From a virus, in the IMG/VR virus record IMGVR_UViG_3300047359_001049, positions 1 through 21,749 of that record: DNA of 21,749 nt; one strand, 5' to 3'. Each line of letters begins with the position of its first letter. Position 1 is the first letter of the stretch. Below the pieces are notes generated by a model, which saw only the letters and a program-made list of their open reading frames with translations, had not been told where the DNA came from and made no database searches. Positions 2,593 to 17,975 of the stretch are shown in pieces. A program made the translations under genes and the position numbers.

Positions 2593-2964
2593 ATGGCAAT
2601 AGTAAATAAAGTTGATTTAAAAATGAAAGTTGATATTGATTTAAGTATAAAATATCAAATAATAACATATTGTTTTTTTAATAACATACTTATTAGTAAT
2701 TCAGACTTAAAATTTTTAGCAGAGTTGTCAAAAAATAGAAATATAGAATTAACTAAATTTTGTTTAAAGTTGGTGGAGGATAAAATATTCAAAAGTCCTC
2801 AATCTGCAAGAAATGCAATTTCAAAAGCTGAAAGAAAAAAACTAATTGTTAAAAAAGGAAATAATAAAAAAACAATATCTCTTGAAAAAAATATAAATGT
2901 ACAGATAGAGGGATTGGTTTTACTTGATTATAAAATATTAGGTTATGAATCCCAAAAGTCATAA
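2593..2964 (+). CDS. Hypothetical protein, possible winged-helix DNA-binding
   Basis: This 123-aa protein is Lys- and Asn-rich and predicted largely helical. The region SPQSARNAISKAERKKLIVK (about 68-87), followed by a beta-like KKTISLEKNINVQIEG, resembles a helix-turn-helix plus wing: helix, recognition-like helix, then a basic strand. It could therefore be a small DNA-binding or regulatory protein, but no family is recognised with confidence. One base separates it from the amidase gene, and it overlaps the downstream HU/IHF-like gene by 20 bases, which suggests coupled translation. The pairing with a DNA-architectural protein supports a DNA-related role. Confidence 0.75.
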   Translation: MAIVNKVDLKMKVDIDLSIKYQIITYCFFNNILISNSDLKFLAELSKNRNIELTKFCLKLVEDKIFKSPQSARNAISKAERKKLIVKKGNNKKTISLEKNINVQIEGLVLLDYKILGYESQKS

Positions 2965-3301
2965 AGATATTAAGGAAGGTATTGCTGATGAGGTTGGTGT
3001 TCATAATTCAGTTGTAGATGAATTTATAACTTTTTATTATGCTAAGCTTAGAAAAAAATTATCTAATTTGGATTATCCAAGGATATATGTTGATGGATTA
3101 GGGACCTTTCATTTAAGAAAAAATAAACTTGAAAAAGGAATTAAAAAGAATAAAAGCATACTTGGAAATTTAGCTAAAAGAACTTATGCTGGATTTGCAA
3201 AAAGTCAAGAAATAAATATAAACCTTAAGCAAATGGAATCAGCATTAAAGCAAATAGAAAGCGATATACTAAATAAAAAACAATTTAAAAATGGCAAATA
3301 G
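2945..3301 (+). CDS. HU/IHF-like DNA-binding protein
   Basis: This 118-aa protein fits the bacterial HU/IHF fold. Helices at about 6-40 (IADEVGVHNSVVDEFITFYY) carry the usual IA...g.....V..... pattern, and RIYVDGLGTFHLRKNKLEKG (46-65) matches the hallmark strand pair (GfGtF.vr). The beta arm after this is short and Lys-rich and lacks the usual Arg-Asn-Pro tip. The C-terminus adds a helical extension (LKQMESALKQIESDIL). Dimeric HU/IHF proteins bend or compact DNA. Crass-like and other Bacteroidota phages carry such genes, so a role in genome architecture, packaging or regulation is likely but inferred. It overlaps its neighbours by 20 bases (upstream) and 11 bases (downstream). Confidence 0.8.
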   Translation: MNPKSHKDIKEGIADEVGVHNSVVDEFITFYYAKLRKKLSNLDYPRIYVDGLGTFHLRKNKLEKGIKKNKSILGNLAKRTYAGFAKSQEININLKQMESALKQIESDILNKKQFKNGK

Positions 3302-3620
3302 TTGGAAAAAATATGTTGATGCATTTAAAAATATTGATAAAATTACAGAAGGCATAAAGAACAATATTTTTAAAAAAGAACATATTGAAGCTGTTGCTAC
3401 TGATAGATTTCAGATATGTATTAAATGTTCATTGTTTGATGCAAAAGGTGATGATTGTTTAGCACCTGGTACTCAACCATGTTGTTCAGATTGTGGTTGT
3501 AGTCTTGCGTTTAAAGTCAGATCAATATCATCTGAATGCCCGAAAGGATATTGGGATGCTCTAGTAACAGAAGAGCAAGAAGATATAATAACTAATCAAA
3601 TAAACAAAAATGGTAATTAA
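3291..3620 (+). CDS. Cys-rich putative zinc-binding phage protein
   Basis: This 109-aa protein has an N-terminal helix and a Cys cluster: CIKC (43/46), Cys56, CCSDCGC (64, 65, 68, 70) and SSECPKGYW (Cys83). The spacing is typical of one or two structural zinc sites. The block C..C......C.......CC..CGC.L..K.RS.SSECP.G.W is one I recall from Bacteroidota and marine phages near terminase genes, but I know of no function. The start is embedded in the end of the HU-like gene, and its own end contains the start of a micro-ORF (3610). A nucleic-acid or protein-interaction role in packaging is possible from context only. Confidence 0.8.
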   Translation: MANSWKKYVDAFKNIDKITEGIKNNIFKKEHIEAVATDRFQICIKCSLFDAKGDDCLAPGTQPCCSDCGCSLAFKVRSISSECPKGYWDALVTEEQEDIITNQINKNGN

Positions 3621-4514: not shown

Positions 4515-5033
4515 ATGATAATAAAATTATTTGACATACAAAATAATAGTTTGATATTAACTGAACATTGCTATGCTTTACCTTTTTTGAAAAAAATAAT
4601 GGATGAGTATCCTGACACAAATTTATCTATTTATAAATATTTATTTTATATGACATGTCCAAATCCAGATTTAAATCCTTTTTTTAATTTACCGGAACAT
4701 GAAAAGGAAGATATTATCATAGAAGAAATTGAACTTGAAGAATCAACAGAAGATCCAACAATAAGATATGCTAAAGCAATGTGTGAAAAGCTTTATCAAA
4801 CTCCTACATACAGAGCTTATGTAGGTATAAAATCTATGTTAGATAGATTAGCAAAATATATGGAAGTTACAGCTATTGAACATGGTAGAGACGGAAATAT
4901 AAATTCAATGGTAAATGCTGCTGCAAAATTTGAGTCAATTAGACAATCATATAAAGGTGCATTTACAGATATGAGACAAGAACAAGACAGCTCTGTGCGT
5001 GGTGGCGCAGGTTTAGCTTATGACCAATTATAA
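4515..5033 (+). CDS. Hypothetical protein upstream of GroES/TerL; small-terminase candidate
   Basis: This 172-aa protein has two parts. Residues 1-60 are a hydrophobic, aromatic alpha/beta segment (LFDIQNNSLILTEHCYALPF). After an acidic linker (EEIELEESTEDP), residues 80-172 are helical: RYAKAMCEKLYQTPTYRAYV, then KSMLDRLAKYME, AAKFESIRQSYKGAFTDMRQ, and a Gly/Ala tail GGAGLAYDQL. The C-terminal block looks familiar from uncultured phage contigs, but I cannot name it. The small terminase is often encoded just before TerL and is helical and oligomeric, so that role is possible. No helix-turn-helix is obvious, and GroES lies between it and TerL. Confidence 0.75.
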   Translation: MIIKLFDIQNNSLILTEHCYALPFLKKIMDEYPDTNLSIYKYLFYMTCPNPDLNPFFNLPEHEKEDIIIEEIELEESTEDPTIRYAKAMCEKLYQTPTYRAYVGIKSMLDRLAKYMEVTAIEHGRDGNINSMVNAAAKFESIRQSYKGAFTDMRQEQDSSVRGGAGLAYDQL

Positions 5034-5044
5034 AAACAACAATT

Positions 5045-5320
5045 ATGGCAGAAAAAATTATTCCTGTAGGACAAAAATTATTAATCAAAGAAATAAAAGC
5101 AGCATCTAAAACTGCATCTGGACTTATTATTCCTGAAATGGCTCAAAAAATAACTTTTAGAGGTGAGGTTGTTGGGATAGGAGATTCAGTTAAAGAAATA
5201 AAAATAGGTGACATAGTTCAATACGCTGAACATGCTATGCCCACTCCAATGAAACATGATGGTCAGGAGCATTTATTATTGCAGGCAGGGGATGTTTATG
5301 CCATTATAAGAGATGAGTAG
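5045..5320 (+). CDS. groES: GroES-like co-chaperonin (Cpn10)
   Basis: This 91-aa protein is close to the usual 95-100 residues of GroES and matches along its length: N-terminal strand IPVGQKLLIKEI, mobile loop at about 17-34 (KAASKTASGLIIPEMAQK, with Gly-Leu-Ile-Ile in place of the Gly-Ile-Val-Leu that contacts GroEL), FRGEVVGIGDS, IKIGDIVQYAEHA, and the C-terminal HLLLQAGDVYAII. A heptameric lid of this kind would pair with host GroEL in the cytoplasm. T4 gp31 does this for capsid folding, so the major capsid protein is the likely client (inference). There is no GroEL gene in the window. Its stop overlaps the terminase start by 8 bases. Confidence 0.93.
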   Translation: MAEKIIPVGQKLLIKEIKAASKTASGLIIPEMAQKITFRGEVVGIGDSVKEIKIGDIVQYAEHAMPTPMKHDGQEHLLLQAGDVYAIIRDE

Positions 5321-7502
5321 AATTATACCCATATTTGAAAATCATCAATGGTCAACTAGAAAGTTTGATACAGATAATGATTTTAAAGAATATTTAGAAT
5401 CTATTTTAAAAGAACCGGGTGAGTATGATTTTGATCATACAGCTTGGAGATTTAATGATGAAGCTAAAAAATTTAATTCAAATGGGGCTTATTGTAATAA
5501 ACCATTTAGATCAAAAGACTTTACAGCTTATTGGGAAGATCAAAAAAACAAATGCAGATTAGGAGTTATATACAAAAGTGGTGACAAGGAATGGTATCTT
5601 ACTAGAGACTATTACATGTGGCTTAACTTTTTACCTATTTTTGATAAAGAAGAGAAAAAATATGGATTTGCAAAAGTAAGAGATGCGCAATATCATATGG
5701 CTTTATATGAAATTATTGCAGAATTAAATAATAAACATGCTGCAATTCTTAAAAAAAGACAGATAGCATCTTCTTATTTTCACATGGGAAAAATTATTAA
5801 TCAGTATTGGTTTGAAGAAGGATCTATATGTAAGATTGGTGCATCCCTTAAAGATTATATAAATGATAAAGGATCCTGGAAGTTTTTAGAGGAATACAAA
5901 ACATTTTTGAATGAACATACTGCATGGTATAGACCGAGTAATCCTGAAAAGGTTTTGCTTTGGCAGCAACAGATTGAGGTCAAAATAAATAATAGAAAAA
6001 CTTCAAGAGGTCTTAAATCAAAGATACAAGGAGCTTCTTTTGAAAAGAATGCTACAACTGGGGTTGGTGGACCGTGTACATATTTTTTTCATGAAGAGGC
6101 CGGGATTGCAAAAAACATGATGCAAACATATGAGTATTTACGTCCAGCAATGTCTTCCGGTATGATGACCACAGGGCAATTTATTGCTGCAGGATCTGTG
6201 GGTGATTTAGAACAATGCAACCCATTAAAGGATATGATATTAAATCCTTCATCAAATGATATTTACGCTGTAGAAACTAATCTTATGGACGCTGATGGTA
6301 CAATTGGTATGGCAGGTTTATTTATTCCTGAACAGTGGTCTATGCCCCCTTATATAGATAAATATGGGAACTCTGAAATAGATAAAGCAATTGCTGCAAT
6401 TAAAAATGAAAGAGCTAAGTGGAAAAATGAATTAAGCGGTGAACAATATCAATTGAGAATATCCCAAAAACCACTTAATATAGCAGAAGCATTTGCTTAT
6501 AGAAAAGAGTCTGTATTTCCACAAGGAATATTAAGTAAACAATTAAAAAAGATTGAAGAAAAAGAATATCCTTATGAGCTTATAGAACTTGATAGAGATC
6601 AAACAGGTATTACCGCTAAGCGTACAAATAAATTACCAATAAGTGAATTTCCAGTAAATAAAAAACAACAAGACAAAACTGGATCTATTGTAGTTTGGGA
6701 AAGACCAATTGATAATCCCGGTTTTGGGGCTTACTATGGTTCTATTGACCCTGTATCAGAAGGTAAAACGACTACATCAGATTCATTATGTAGTATATAT
6801 ATTTACAAAAATGCCACTGAAGTAACTAGAGATATTGGTGGTGGTGACGTAGAACAATTTATTGAAGGTGATAAAATTGTTGCAGCATGGTGTGGGAGAT
6901 TTGATGACATTAACAAAACACATGAAAGATTAGAATTATTAATTGAATGGTATAATGCATGGACTATTGTTGAAAATAATATTTCATTATTCATTCAACA
7001 TATGATTGCAAGAAAAAAACAAAGATATTTAGTTCCAAAACAACAAATACTTTTTTTAAAAGATCTGGGATCTAATAGAACAGTTTATCAAGAATACGGT
7101 TGGAAAAATACAGGAACACTCTTTAAAAGCCATTTGATTTCTTATGCAATTGAATTTTTAAGAGAAAGCATTCATGAGGAAACAGATGAACATGGATCTG
7201 TTATGTCACAAACATTAGGGGTTGAAAGAATACCGGATCCCATGCTTATAAAAGAAATGTTAGCATATTATCCAGGATTAAACGTAGATAGACTAGTTAC
7301 ATTTGGCGCATTAATAGCTTTTGCTAAAATACAGCAATCTAATAGAGGATATTCTAAAAGGCGTGAATCAGAGGATAATTCCTTGGTAAATCCAGAAAAA
7401 ATAAGTAAATTAAAGTATAGTAGTCCGTTTAAAAATATTGGACGTAAAAGAGGTTTGGGAGGATCTAAAATTAAAAGATCCGGATTTAAAAACATTAAAT
7501 AG
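5313..7502 (+). CDS. terL: Terminase large subunit (TerL)
   Basis: This 729-aa packaging motor/nuclease is long for a TerL (often 450-650). After an N-terminal extension of about 120 residues, the ATPase part includes AAILKKRQIASSYFHMGKI (143-161), where Walker A should be; a classical GxxxxGKS/T is absent. A Walker B-like CTYFFHEEAG lies at 255-264, followed by an IAAGSVGD segment (291-298). The RuvC/RNase H-type nuclease starts at YYGSIDPVSEGKTTTSD (Asp479), with TIVENN (Glu554) and NVDRLVTFGA (Asp659) as probable metal ligands. The C-terminus is basic (KRRES, GRKRGLGGSKIKRSG). It resembles large TerLs of crass-like and marine Bacteroidota phages. The portal gene follows 11 bases later, the classic order. 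Confidence 0.92.
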   Translation: MSRIIPIFENHQWSTRKFDTDNDFKEYLESILKEPGEYDFDHTAWRFNDEAKKFNSNGAYCNKPFRSKDFTAYWEDQKNKCRLGVIYKSGDKEWYLTRDYYMWLNFLPIFDKEEKKYGFAKVRDAQYHMALYEIIAELNNKHAAILKKRQIASSYFHMGKIINQYWFEEGSICKIGASLKDYINDKGSWKFLEEYKTFLNEHTAWYRPSNPEKVLLWQQQIEVKINNRKTSRGLKSKIQGASFEKNATTGVGGPCTYFFHEEAGIAKNMMQTYEYLRPAMSSGMMTTGQFIAAGSVGDLEQCNPLKDMILNPSSNDIYAVETNLMDADGTIGMAGLFIPEQWSMPPYIDKYGNSEIDKAIAAIKNERAKWKNELSGEQYQLRISQKPLNIAEAFAYRKESVFPQGILSKQLKKIEEKEYPYELIELDRDQTGITAKRTNKLPISEFPVNKKQQDKTGSIVVWERPIDNPGFGAYYGSIDPVSEGKTTTSDSLCSIYIYKNATEVTRDIGGGDVEQFIEGDKIVAAWCGRFDDINKTHERLELLIEWYNAWTIVENNISLFIQHMIARKKQRYLVPKQQILFLKDLGSNRTVYQEYGWKNTGTLFKSHLISYAIEFLRESIHEETDEHGSVMSQTLGVERIPDPMLIKEMLAYYPGLNVDRLVTFGALIAFAKIQQSNRGYSKRRESEDNSLVNPEKISKLKYSSPFKNIGRKRGLGGSKIKRSGFKNIK

Positions 7503-7513
7503 ATTAATTCAAT

Positions 7514-10261
7514 ATGAGAGTATTAAACGCGATGCAAATGAAAAGTGGTGCCACTGCAGAAAGTGGGCCTACGTTTTCTAGTCTTACCCAGCCTATACAA
7601 TTTTTACCATATTCAAAAAAGACAGATGATTGGGCAGCTTGGAATTTAGATTGGTTAGAGCTTCAAGGCATTGAGTTTTTACGTGTAAATTCAAGAAGGC
7701 TTCTTAAGAATTATAAACTTGCAAAAGGAATAATTGACAAAACAGATTATATTGTTGAGCCTGATAATGAATATAAAGATTTAATGGATACACTAACAGC
7801 TGAAAATGATTCAGCTTTGGAATTAAAATTTTATCCAATAATTCCCAATGTTATAAACGTATTGACAGGCGAATTTGCTAAAAGATATTCTAAAGTTCAG
7901 TTTAGAGCAGTGGATGATACATCTTACAATGAAATGCTTGAACAAAAAAGAATACAAATTGAAGAAGCATTATTAGCAGATGCAGAAGCTAATTTAGTTC
8001 TTAAGATGATTGAAATGGGTATGGATCCCGCATCAGAGGAAGCACAGCAACAATTATCTCCAGAAGGGTTAAAATCATTACCAGAAATAGAAGATTTTTT
8101 TAGTAAGTCTTATAGAAGTATGGTTGAAGAGTGGGCATCACACCAACTCTCAGTTGATGAAGAAAGATTTAAAATGCAGGAGCTTGAGGAAAGAGGTTTC
8201 CGTGATATGCTTATTTCAGATAGAGAATTTTGGCATTTTCGCATGCTTGAAGATGACTATGATGTAGAATTATGGAACCCCATATTAACATTTTATCAAA
8301 AGTCTCCTGATCAAAGATACATAGCAGATTCAAATTATTGTGGAAAAGTTGATTTAATGACTGTGTCCGATGTAGTAGACAAGTATGGCTATTTGATGGA
8401 TGAAAAACAATTGAAGTCATTGCAAAAAATTTATCCAGCAAGATCAGCTCAATATCAAGTTAATGGTTATCAAAATGATGGAGCATACTATGATGCTACA
8501 AGATCTCATGAGTGGAATACACAAATGCCAGGTTTAGGATATAGACAATTTACATCCAATTATTGGGATGATCCATCAAGAGGTGGTGATATACTTAGTG
8601 AAATATTAAATGAGAATGAAGATGTGTCTATGTGGGGTGAAGGAGACTTGATGAGAGTTTCAACAATATATTGGAAAACTCAACGTAGAATAGGTCACTT
8701 AACTAAAATAGAAACAGACGGTGAAGTAACACAAGAAATAGTAGATGAAACATTTAAGATAACTAAAAAGGCTGTTTATGATACTTCTGTTTTTAAACAA
8801 AAAAATAAAGAAAATTTATTAGAAGGAGAACATATTGAATGGATATGGATTAATGAAACATGGGGTGGTGTAAAAATTGGTCCAAATTTACCTGCTATGT
8901 GGAGATCTACTATGGGTGATAACATAAATCCTATTTACATTGGTATTAATAGAACTAAACCTGGTAGGCTACCATTTCAATTTAAAGGAAATAATACACT
9001 TTATGGTTGTAAACTTCCTGTTGAGGGTAGAGTATTTTCAGATAGAAATACCAGATCTACATCATTAGTTGATCTAATGAAAGCATATCAAGTTGGATAT
9101 AATATGGTTAATAACCAAATTGCGGATATCCTTATAGATGAATTAGGAACAGTAATAATGTTTGATCAAAACGCTTTACCACGTCACTCAATGGGAGAAG
9201 ATTGGGGTAAAAATAATTATGCAAAAGCATATGTAGCCATGAAAGATTTTCAGATGTTACCTCTTGATACATCTATTACAAATACTGAGAATGCTACTAA
9301 CTTTAACCATTACCAAACTCTGAATATGGAGCAGACTAATAGGTTAATGTCTAGAATTCAACTTGCTAATTATTTTAAGCAACAATGTTTTGATGCAATT
9401 GGTATTAACCCTCAACGTCTAGGAGGCGCTGTATCTGCACAAACAGCTACAGGAGTTGTACAAGCCATGCAGCAATCATATGCTCAAACAGAGATGTATT
9501 TTGTACAACACTCAGATCATTTAATGCCAAGGGTTCACCAAATGAGAACTGATTTAGCACAGTATTATTATAGTACTAACCCAAGTGTTAGATTATCTTA
9601 TATTTCTTCTGAAGCAGAAAAGGTTAATTTTTCTATTAACGGAACTGAATTATTGCTTAGAGATTTTAATGTATTTGCAACTACTAAAACAAATCACCGA
9701 GCTATATTGGAAAATCTTAAACAGATGGCTCTTACAAATAATACAACAGGAGCAAGCATATATGAACTTGGTAATATTGTTAAAGCTGATTCAATTGCCG
9801 AAGTAACAGATATATTAAAAGATTCTGAAACAAGAATGCAACAGCAACGTCAGCAAGAAATGCAACAGCAACGTCAAATGCAAGAACAACAATTGCAAGC
9901 CAAAGCACAAGAGGAACAACAAAAGTTGCAAGTTGAAAGAGAAGAAAATGCTAAGGATAGGCAAAATGATATTACAATTGCTGAGATTAGGTCTGCTGGT
10001 TTTGGTTCTATGGCTGACATAAACCAAAATCAACAATCTGATTTTCAAGATGCAATAAAAGATATTAGAGAAACAACTCAATATCGTGAACAAATGAATC
10101 TTAAACGTGAAGAGAATAGTTCTAAATCTATGATGGAAAATACCAGACTTCAAGTAGAAAGAGAAAAAATAAATGCATCAAAAGAAATAGCTAATACTAA
10201 ACTTCAAATAGCTAAAGAAAACAAAAATAAGTATGATTCAAAAGAATCAGATAAAAAATAA
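7514..10261 (+). CDS. Portal protein
   Basis: At 915 aa this is at the long end for portals. The dodecameric portal sits at one capsid vertex, docks TerL and passes DNA. Support comes from position directly after TerL, size, and features such as LRVNSRRLLKNYKLAKGIID near the N-terminus, FYPIIPNVINVLTGEFAKRY, a long middle with Trp-rich strands, and FDAIGINPQRLGGAVSAQTA with TGVVQAMQQS, which resembles the portal stem/wing segment around the clip. Residues of about 771-817 are a Gln/Glu-rich coiled coil with an 8-residue repeat (MQQQRQQE / MQQQRQMQ). After a short break (ITIAEIRSAGF), a second charged helix runs to the end (about 845-915), a possible barrel or internal-protein-binding tail. 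Confidence 0.88.
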   Translation: MRVLNAMQMKSGATAESGPTFSSLTQPIQFLPYSKKTDDWAAWNLDWLELQGIEFLRVNSRRLLKNYKLAKGIIDKTDYIVEPDNEYKDLMDTLTAENDSALELKFYPIIPNVINVLTGEFAKRYSKVQFRAVDDTSYNEMLEQKRIQIEEALLADAEANLVLKMIEMGMDPASEEAQQQLSPEGLKSLPEIEDFFSKSYRSMVEEWASHQLSVDEERFKMQELEERGFRDMLISDREFWHFRMLEDDYDVELWNPILTFYQKSPDQRYIADSNYCGKVDLMTVSDVVDKYGYLMDEKQLKSLQKIYPARSAQYQVNGYQNDGAYYDATRSHEWNTQMPGLGYRQFTSNYWDDPSRGGDILSEILNENEDVSMWGEGDLMRVSTIYWKTQRRIGHLTKIETDGEVTQEIVDETFKITKKAVYDTSVFKQKNKENLLEGEHIEWIWINETWGGVKIGPNLPAMWRSTMGDNINPIYIGINRTKPGRLPFQFKGNNTLYGCKLPVEGRVFSDRNTRSTSLVDLMKAYQVGYNMVNNQIADILIDELGTVIMFDQNALPRHSMGEDWGKNNYAKAYVAMKDFQMLPLDTSITNTENATNFNHYQTLNMEQTNRLMSRIQLANYFKQQCFDAIGINPQRLGGAVSAQTATGVVQAMQQSYAQTEMYFVQHSDHLMPRVHQMRTDLAQYYYSTNPSVRLSYISSEAEKVNFSINGTELLLRDFNVFATTKTNHRAILENLKQMALTNNTTGASIYELGNIVKADSIAEVTDILKDSETRMQQQRQQEMQQQRQMQEQQLQAKAQEEQQKLQVEREENAKDRQNDITIAEIRSAGFGSMADINQNQQSDFQDAIKDIRETTQYREQMNLKREENSSKSMMENTRLQVEREKINASKEIANTKLQIAKENKNKYDSKESDKK
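9836..9876 (+). repeat. Direct repeat inside the portal coiled-coil region
   Basis: ATGCAACAGCAACGTCA occurs at 9836-9852 and again at 9860-9876, a 24-base period that encodes an eight-residue MQQQRQ unit twice. It lengthens the Gln-rich helix of the portal C-terminus and is a likely place for repeat-number change. Confidence 0.8.
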
Positions 10262-11753: not shown

Positions 11754-13373
11754 ATGGCAACTCCAGTTTTAAATAATGGAATTTTCCTGCGTGATACAAG
11801 CTACAAGGCTAGTTCACATGTTGATTCTTATCACCTTACCCAGATGCTCGGTAATCCTGAGCCTATGGATATGGGACCAATTGATTTATGGGCAATGACC
11901 CAGAAGGTAGAAATGCCTTTATATCAAATGGCTTCTTTTGGTGGAAAGAATACTATCATGGTGGATAATGCTAGAGGCGAGTACAAGTGGCAAACTCCCA
12001 TTGCACAAGATCTTCCTTACATTGTAGCAGACATTGAACCGGCTAATACTAATAAAGGTATTGATGGAACCTACTTTAAAATTAAGGTCAACAAAAGAAC
12101 ATTTGGTCATGGTGATATTATCACATATGACAAGTATAATGGTCTTGAATTATACATTACAGCAGATGATATTATTCCTGCAGGTGATGGTTTTGTATAT
12201 ACTGTACAGTTAGTTAACAATAACAACAGTGCAATATTAGATAATAAATATCTTGCAAAAGGAACTAAGTTCTTTAGAAAAGGTTCTGCAAGAGGTGAAT
12301 ATGGTGAAAGGTTTTCTGATATTGAGACAGGATCTGGATTCCGTGAATTCTACAATTTCGTAGGTGGAGCAGAAGCACATGTACATTATTCAATTTCTAG
12401 CCGTGCTGATCTTATGATCAAAGGCGGTTTGAATGCTGATGGTACAGTACCAGTAACTGAAATCTGGAGAAACTTTGATAATGATCCAAATAATCCATCC
12501 GTACCAAGCATTGAAGGTTTGGTAGCAAATATGGGTAAAGCTGGTGCAAGAGAAGCATTTGAAAATGGAACTCTTACACGTACTTTCATTACAAATATGG
12601 AAGCAGCTCATTTATCTAAAATTGCAACGGATATTGAAACTTACCTAATGTGGGGTAAAGGTGGTAGAATTAAACAAGATGGACCAGATGATATTAGATT
12701 ATCTGTAGGTTTATGGGCACAGTTAGATAACTCTTTCAAAAGAGTATATAACAAGTCTTCATTTACTCTTGATATGTTTAAGTCTGAACTTTACAACTTT
12801 TATCAAGGTAAAGTTGAATTTAAAGGACCGGACCCACAAAGATCACTTGTTGTACAAACAGGTATTGGTGGTATGCAATTAATCAACAAAGCAATTGCTG
12901 ATGAAGTGTATGGTTCTGGTTTAGTTCAAAATGCATCTGATATAGGAGCTGTTAAAGGTTCTGGTATGGATTTAGATTATGGTTTTGCTTACACAAGCTT
13001 TACTATTCCTTTCTTAGCTAACGTTAAGTTTGTATTGAATCCTGCATTTGATAACTTAAATACTAATGACATTGAGAATCCATTGATTGATGGAAGACCT
13101 CTAAGTTCATTTAGTTTTATTATTTTTGACGTAACTGATGAAGGAAATGACAACATTCACTTGTTGAAACTTTCTTGGGATAATCAACTTAAGTGGTTCT
13201 ACCAAAATGGTACTATGGACTACATGGGAAGAACTCAAGGGTTTGCTTCTACTGGTCAGTTTAATGGTTATAGAGTTTATATGACTCAGACTATGCCAGC
13301 TATATGGGTTAAAGATCCAACTAAAGTTCTAAAAATTGTAATGAGAAACCCTGTAACAGGAGGATCATTCTAG
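11754..13373 (+). CDS. Major capsid protein
   Basis: This 539-aa protein is taken as the HK97-fold major capsid protein from its place after TerL, portal and scaffold-like genes, its length, and its isolation in a unit closed by a strong terminator, as expected for the most abundant virion protein. Coding looks smoother here, with more C-ending codons (aac, ttc, tac) than in neighbours, consistent with high expression. Visible segments include a soluble N-terminus (GIFLRDTSYKASSHVDSYHL), a Pro/Met-rich early part (NPEPMDMGPIDLWAM), an Asn/Gly-rich insertion-like region around 100-190, a long helix-rich middle (GKAGAREAFENGTLTRTFIT) and a beta-rich end (RVYMTQTMPAIWVKDPTKVL). No N-terminal propeptide or cleavage site can be seen. 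Confidence 0.8.
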   Translation: MATPVLNNGIFLRDTSYKASSHVDSYHLTQMLGNPEPMDMGPIDLWAMTQKVEMPLYQMASFGGKNTIMVDNARGEYKWQTPIAQDLPYIVADIEPANTNKGIDGTYFKIKVNKRTFGHGDIITYDKYNGLELYITADDIIPAGDGFVYTVQLVNNNNSAILDNKYLAKGTKFFRKGSARGEYGERFSDIETGSGFREFYNFVGGAEAHVHYSISSRADLMIKGGLNADGTVPVTEIWRNFDNDPNNPSVPSIEGLVANMGKAGAREAFENGTLTRTFITNMEAAHLSKIATDIETYLMWGKGGRIKQDGPDDIRLSVGLWAQLDNSFKRVYNKSSFTLDMFKSELYNFYQGKVEFKGPDPQRSLVVQTGIGGMQLINKAIADEVYGSGLVQNASDIGAVKGSGMDLDYGFAYTSFTIPFLANVKFVLNPAFDNLNTNDIENPLIDGRPLSSFSFIIFDVTDEGNDNIHLLKLSWDNQLKWFYQNGTMDYMGRTQGFASTGQFNGYRVYMTQTMPAIWVKDPTKVLKIVMRNPVTGGSF

Positions 13374-17795: not shown

Positions 17796-17975
17796 ATGGC
17801 AAATTGTGCTCACTGTAATAAAGTATTTACTTGTGGATGTCAAAAAGCTAGTTTAGGAAATGGAGTAGTAGTATGTAAACAATGTAAAGCAAAAGCTGAA
17901 GCAGATGTATCAACATCAAGAGACTTAAATCTAGAATTAGCAAGACAACAAGTACAAGATTTAAAAAATAGATAA
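17796..17975 (+). CDS. Small putative zinc-ribbon protein, 59 aa
   Basis: This 59-residue ORF starts ATGGCA 11 bases after the previous stop and ends 7 bases before the next start. It has seven-residue-scale Cys pairs: CAHC (4/7), CGC (13/15) and CKQC (27/30), with His6, a classical zinc-binding layout, and then a charged helical tail (SRDLNLELARQQVQDLKNR). Without it there would be a 198-base hole in the operon. From memory similar small C..C/CGC/C..C proteins occur in uncultured Bacteroidota phages next to fibre genes; the function is unknown. A chaperone or scaffold role for fibre assembly is only a guess. Confidence 0.82.
   Translation: MANCAHCNKVFTCGCQKASLGNGVVVCKQCKAKAEADVSTSRDLNLELARQQVQDLKNR

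Follow-up and report, generated by a model that had tools for sequence, protein, structure and literature searches.

Already known among phages are the co-chaperonin gp31 of T4, the annotated GroES-like genes of gut Crassvirales and the GroEL and GroES of marine phages. In particular, gp31 is described in passages of PMC6318259 as essential for folding the T4 capsid protein gp23, as devoid of roof loops and as having a longer mobile loop (22 vs 16 residues). In gut Crassvirales, a "putative 10kDa chaperonin" is annotated in crAss001 (Gp15), cr106_1, cr126_1, cr112_1, PhiCrAssBcn23 and cr116_1. Among marine viruses, Maribacter phage Panino has both groES and groEL (excerpt of PMC11590407), a co-chaperonin GroES stands among structural genes in marine virus genomic islands (excerpt of PMC6487183), and GroEL homologues occur in 36 of the 78 genomes of group 2, which includes IAS virus and Cellulophaga phages (Nishimura et al. 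2017, PMC5332604, excerpt); the main text of the latter paper does not contain the terms GroES, cpn10, co-chaperonin, Hsp10 or 10 kDa. Flavobacterium elemo phages and Bacteroides phage DAC16 carry chaperonin genes of their own, with groES and groEL as neighbours; the DAC16 pair (L104:5989-7888) is recorded as hypothetical proteins, with a Cpn60 match of 247 bits and a Cpn10 match. Here, a groES-like gene is described on a 21,749-base virus record, IMGVR_UViG_3300047359_001049 of IMG/VR (the whole stretch, hereafter the window), a fragment of a crAss-like phage in which this gene overlaps terL, the gene of the large terminase subunit. With a probability of about 0.72, its product is a GroES-type co-chaperonin that caps the host (or the phage's own) GroEL to fold late phage proteins, most plausibly the major capsid protein (MCP).

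The gene, its parts and its overlap with terL are located in the window as follows.

5045..5320, + strand: groES-like co-chaperonin gene, ATG start, 91 codons plus stop (Cpn10, phrog_3188, fold)
5090..5146, + strand: mobile-loop segment, GroES residues 16-34 (alignments to PDB and bacterial GroES)
5123..5131, + strand: hydrophobic triad L27-I28-I29 of the mobile loop (alignment)
5180..5209, + strand: shortened roof segment G46-G55, 10 residues (alignment)
5255..5272, + strand: phage-specific histidines H71 (5255-5257) and H76 (5270-5272) (alignment)
5313..5320, + strand: 8-nt overlap between the groES end and the terL start, ATGAGTAG (sequence)
5313..7502, + strand: terL, large terminase subunit, 729 aa (phrog_6681, E 1.6e-61)

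The groES product matches Pfam Cpn10 (PF00166) along the entire profile (positions 1-93 of 93; 51.6 bits with a cut-off of 21.1, E 9.9e-14) as well as phrog_3188, co-chaperonin GroES (E 9.5e-19), and its strong sequence matches in the PDB are co-chaperonins. An AlphaFold2 monomer model, built from 85 sequences of the window GroES family, has a mean pLDDT of 85.6, with lower confidence at residues 21-40 (block means 69 and 72), and folds into a GroES beta-barrel, GroES structures being at the top of the structure search. Alignment of the model with VIA-align gave Z scores of 12.2 to 8wuc and 10.9 to 1aon, with several GroES chains between 10 and 12.2, while T4 gp31 reached 8.5 and 8.1, under several GroES chains; on these scores the predicted fold appears to resemble cellular GroES more than gp31. 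The GroES fold is also shared with Bacteroidota and Flavobacteriaceae GroES, as represented by structures from other species, and the best match in the viral structure library was the GroES of Virus NIOZ-UU157 (A0A7S9STM9; 91 aa, 40% identity, TM 0.85). The first-pass annotation had proposed a full-length GroES homologue coupled to terL upstream of the capsid genes. Indeed, the open reading frames (ORFs), the whole-profile Cpn10 match and the predicted fold all bear out such a homologue, overlapping terL and heading a terL-portal-MCP run, and the 8-nt overlap is consistent with translational coupling. The same annotation had invoked gp31 as precedent, which stands as a functional analogy and for the apparent reduction of the roof; the predicted structure, however, tends towards GroES, and among phages crAss001 Gp15 offers the closest precedent. 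For phrog_931 "head morphogenesis", which we take to be linked to gp31, no row was returned for the window protein at E up to 0.1.

Conservation of the groES-terL linkage was followed in three surveys, which share contigs and are not independent, the scans giving the best 80 loci of larger sets. In the first, whose 102 sources include the window and one excerpt taken from it, groES lies directly 5' of terL in 99, and terL sits at the contig edge in all three misses (L027, L062 and L074). The second survey placed groES directly 5' of terL in 154/162 sources, of which 140 share the 8-nt overlap (gap -8) of the window; its misses are truncated terL genes that received no ORF call and in which groES was present in the first survey (L019, L024 and L026), loci with no room (L062, L074 and L085), one contig edge (L027) and one true absence at the site (L257). 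Among the deeper lineages covered by the third survey, groES is directly 5' of terL in 74/78 sources, the exceptions being L411, where 149 nt separate the two genes, and L405 and L257/L404 (one contig), which are without groES there. The linkage that had been named as a check was thus recovered each time, and in the crAss-like branch sampled, a large one known here only from metagenomes, terL is almost always accompanied by the co-chaperonin gene.

Three further genes of the window surround this pair.

4515..5033, + strand: 172-aa protein encoded immediately before groES, perhaps distantly related to the crAss001 Gp16 family
7514..10261, + strand: portal protein (phrog_6547, E 6.4e-95)
11754..13373, + strand: MCP, 539 aa, presumed client of the co-chaperonin (PF23898)

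The capsid protein matches the Crassvirales model Crass_capsid (PF23898, Pfam) with 104.5 bits, the cut-off being 27, and among the TerL matches listed (60 of 133) most are crAss-like records. Because the capsid passes this model and TerL and portal match phage families, the window is assigned to a crAss-like phage, which is probably a marine relative of the gut crAss phages with a host that would belong to marine Bacteroidota.

Like the window, crAss001 (Gp15) and its Steigviridae relatives have a GroES-like gene 5' of terL on the same strand, and the window family profile (85 sequences) is homologous to a six-sequence Gp15 profile (hhalign probability 95, E 3.5e-8). Gp15-type proteins have 136-154 aa and are encoded 5' of terL with two or three genes in between, preceding a Gp16 family gene, whereas the window protein has 91 aa, its gene overlaps terL, and it scores above the Cpn10 cut-off; when three Gp15-type proteins were scanned, two matched Cpn10 below the cut-off (17.6 and 18.6 bits) and one gave no match. 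The 172-aa protein may in turn be related to the Gp16 family, with which it aligns colinearly along nearly its entire length (hhalign probability 64, E 6.5e-5). In the short stretches around terL of cr1_1, Lbo-JY46 (a Leptolyngbya phage), ProJPt-Bp1, cr128_1, Fpv3 and cr11_1, no chaperonin is annotated; profile scans covered one gene in each of three of these six phages. The whole record of phi14:2 gave no Cpn10 match in Pfam; the viral structure library holds a 129-aa phi14:2 protein with a GroES fold, likely g096 (g017 is equally long), and g096 reached a probability of 83 with the Gp15 profile and 3 with the window-family profile. Since several gut Crassvirales also carry a GroES-like gene near terL, its presence there is probably an old trait of part of the Crassvirales and not a new acquisition of this phage. 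The main texts of the Crassvirales papers searched for chaperonin and GroES terms make no mention of a terL-linked co-chaperonin, and in the open-licence crAss-like literature, without supplements, a passage on GroES was found only in connection with the neighbourhoods of novel phage DNA polymerases. Nor were a clade-wide terL overlap, an optional flavobacterial GroEL or remodelled and broken loops found in print among such articles; as far as the searches reach, the new parts are the clade-wide overlap, the optional GroEL and the loop series.

The window protein has a mobile loop with a hydrophobic triad, SG-LII-P, which is the same kind of motif as in GroES of Bacteroidota and Flavobacteriaceae. 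The bacterial GroES used for comparison come from bacteria chosen for having the GroEL most similar to that of the phages; by record title these are mostly flavobacteria and other Bacteroidota, and 79/80 loci yielded 77 unique GroES. In these 79/80 loci groES lies within about 3 kb 5' of groEL, unlike in the window, where it lies with terL. The bacterial consensus is mostly (S/G)G(I/L)(I/Y/F)IP, made up of SGIIIP (28 of the 77), GGIIIP (16), SGIFIP and SGLYIP (9 each), SGIYIP (6), SGLIIP (4) and five further forms found once each, one of them unmatched. The loop had been read as carrying GLII in place of GIVL, possibly to suit a particular GroEL. The mobile loop itself is present, but because the SGLIIP of the window matches the related bacterial forms, the substitution has no special meaning: it is ordinary in Bacteroidota, and its treatment as an unusual loop was rejected.

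Across phages, 143 unique GroES were obtained from 228 of the 239 sources searched, and the triad is intact in 130 of them, preceded by a glycine in 73 and by GTN/NTN-like residues in 57, while a glycine before the triad is present in 79/79 bacterial GroES. The loop is remodelled to (G/N)T-x before the triad in L084, L086, L089, L090, L242, L244-L252, L255, L256, L258-L262 and L264-L292, and in L380-L441 except L404 and L405; the third hydrophobic residue of the triad is lost in L282-L286, L292, L380-L395 and L400.

The departure from related Bacteroidota GroES appears, on alignment, to lie in a shortened roof and two phage-specific histidines. Indeed, the roof segment has 10 residues in 140/144 phage rows (the 143 unique proteins plus a repeated window row) against 14 in 73/79 bacterial GroES, a comparison made by alignment only, and the PDB GroES shown align with gaps at this segment of the window protein; the shortening may parallel the missing roof loops of T4 gp31. 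H71 is found in 144/144 phage rows, where bacteria mostly have Leu, Ile, Phe or Tyr, and H76 in 137/144, where bacteria mostly have Tyr; the two residues flank a two-residue beta turn between model strands 67-71 and 74-80. Among the 85 phage GroES sequences, P7, G9, L13, G46, H71 and L78 are invariant. As a side observation, H71 and H76, together with M69, are nearly invariant in phage GroES and absent from bacterial GroES, and might form a metal or interface site.

In the window clade groES is found with terL, and any groEL is located apart from it, near a DNA polymerase gene, in contrast to the adjacent pairs of the elemo phages and DAC16. A search from the GroEL of one relative (G009), which covered the best 80 loci and then the next 25 records, returned a TerL relative in 5/25 GroEL-bearing records (G032-G036), all five with groES adjoining terL; the other 20 have no TerL match, and three of these have Cpn10. 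Six terL-bearing records therefore encode GroEL (G009 and G032-G036), and none of them has a Cpn10 match other than the gene linked to terL. The phage GroEL genes are located at L106:1423-3057 and in L117-L136, and in G009 the gene is beside a DNA polymerase gene; a 291-aa ORF beside groEL is presumably a DUF932 protein. The motifs GEALxTLV(V/I)N and DGVTVAK are each kept in 20/20 phage GroELs, and the assignment of the GroEL docking helices is our own assumption. Because the 20 best phage GroELs are united in a single clade (support 1.0), which joins 11 flavobacterial GroELs (support 0.877) and stands separate from the GroELs of phi14:2 and DAC16, the tree, in which some deeper nodes are weak, suggests a single capture from a flavobacterium; the contigs of most of these 20 show no TerL match.

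Possession of a phage GroEL is optional. End repeats indicate that G034 (161 nt), which has GroEL and groES, and G004 (112 nt), which has groES and no GroEL, are likely complete, while no end repeats were found in nine other long records tested. In G004 no GroEL lies between the polymerase gene and the next oppositely oriented gene, and GroEL is likewise missing from this stretch in G014 and in G002, which is closely related to the window (TerL 95.5%). Since groES is kept both with and without a phage GroEL, it is independent of phage groEL, and the window phage most likely relies on the GroEL of its host. A candidate rule by which the GroES subtype ("YT.HCLP" vs "YA.HAMP") would track the phage GroEL did not hold, as G032 has GroEL together with the AMP type; among CLP-type records, no GroEL was found in the 75,832 and 29,999 bases of G046 and G047 (L245 and L247) nor in G012, G013, G017 and G018 (L061, L064, L086 and L089), all of which may be incomplete.

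In the favoured reading, seven copies of the groES product would form a lid whose host-like mobile loops dock on the host GroEL or, in the minority of relatives with a GroEL of flavobacterial origin, on the phage GroEL. The lid would be made late, its gene belonging to one run with those of TerL, portal and capsid protein, and the cut-down roof might provide a cage suited to late phage proteins, most plausibly the MCP; we infer the MCP as client because of the gp31 precedent, the position of the gene and the size of the MCP (539 aa). Natural genomes with and without their own GroEL, together with graded docking loops, offer a way to ask what a phage co-chaperonin needs.

Whether GroES follows the capsid was evaluated in 37 loci, dereplicated from the 45 with all four genes among 157 sources. 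The mean protein distance is 0.728 for GroES, 0.233 for portal, 0.220 for TerL and 0.067 for MCP, and a GroES change driven by the MCP is not evident because the MCP hardly changes. The partial rank correlation between GroES and MCP is 0.151 given TerL (35/999 permutations as high) and 0.239 given portal (4/999), while that between GroES and portal is 0.135 given TerL (79/999) and 0.261 given MCP (4/999). Co-evolution of GroES with the MCP was thus rejected as a specific signal: the idea of a co-chaperonin tuned to the capsid gains weakly from these values, but the association of GroES with portal given MCP is as strong. All in all, groES is constrained, but there is no clear sign that changes in the capsid drive its divergence. 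Independently of this, the capsid protein of the clade is remarkably constant compared with TerL and portal.

Some of these data weigh against a GroEL cap that serves capsid folding. The MCP is near constant, and the divergence of GroES is about ten times as large. In 13/143 unique phage GroES the triad is interrupted by a non-hydrophobic residue, which is N, K or R in third position in 12 and a central histidine in 1. Only 1/20 of the larger contigs of the first survey has GroEL (G009), many of them being incomplete, and no GroEL was found in 18 later large records or in 11 deep-lineage ones (one record belongs to both sets, and many are incomplete). Moreover, an unrelated 81-aa ORF takes the place of groES at L257:4447-4692 (the contig of L404:2253-2498) and at L405:876-1121, and since this lineage is without groES at the terL site, it may be able to do without the gene, unless another part of the genome holds a copy. 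The 81-aa ORF overlaps terL by 4 nt and could be a replacement.

An unlikely alternative is that groES is mainly an auxiliary gene that assists protein folding in general within infected cells, for example in the cold, and not a head helper. In the Southern Ocean, the majority of viruses are reported to carry one or more GroEL/GroES analogues, for which a role in cold adaptation has been suggested (excerpt of PMC8407431), and the loop matches that of bacterial GroES, so the window protein could also serve host clients. However, the gene opens the terL-portal-MCP run in almost every sampled relative, a fixed spot that fits joint expression with head genes, and related genes near terL are also found in phages of human feces, a warm habitat. 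The gene could alternatively be a passenger heading for decay, given that it diverges faster than terL, portal and MCP and is missing from the terL site in one lineage. The median dN/dS is 0.166 for groES (728 pairs), 0.091 for terL (741), 0.071 for the 172-aa gene (692), 0.066 for portal (383) and 0.039 for MCP (39); against decay, the value of 0.166 denotes purifying selection, which argues that groES is not a chance ORF, no groES match listed has an internal stop, and six residues are invariant in 85 sequences, which makes decay exceedingly improbable.

The broken loops lend themselves to a further explanation, in which the GroES fold has been recruited as a terminase or packaging ring and has given up the binding of GroEL, at least in the deep lineages. 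In its favour, the terL overlap is retained where the triad is broken (the 12/143 with N, K or R in third position), no GroEL match was found in the broken-loop record G064 (115,584 bases without an end repeat, maybe incomplete), and the loop has the higher mean pN within groES (0.202 vs 0.135 elsewhere). This recruitment is nevertheless very unlikely, as the triad is intact in 130/143, the window loop is host-like and six terL-bearing relatives carry GroEL. With respect to the deep lineages themselves, it is conceivable, if rather doubtful, that the GroEL-docking loop was rebuilt from KTASG-LII-P through PGTN-III-P to GTT-ILK-T, in this hypothetical order and with a near-constant capsid, so that proteins with a broken loop may have stopped capping GroEL and may instead serve the packaging or assembly machinery as a ring. 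If true, the loop series would represent an evolutionary path from a chaperonin lid to a phage assembly part.

Other genes of the window deserve a brief mention. The 172-aa gene (4515-5033) sits between an exonuclease gene and groES and is strongly conserved; it might be considered a candidate small terminase, as an idea only. The ORF at 2945-3301 was presumed to be HU-like, and Pfam gave no such match. Finally, two small cysteine-rich ORFs, at 3291-3620 and 17796-17975, have by eye the look of zinc-binding proteins.

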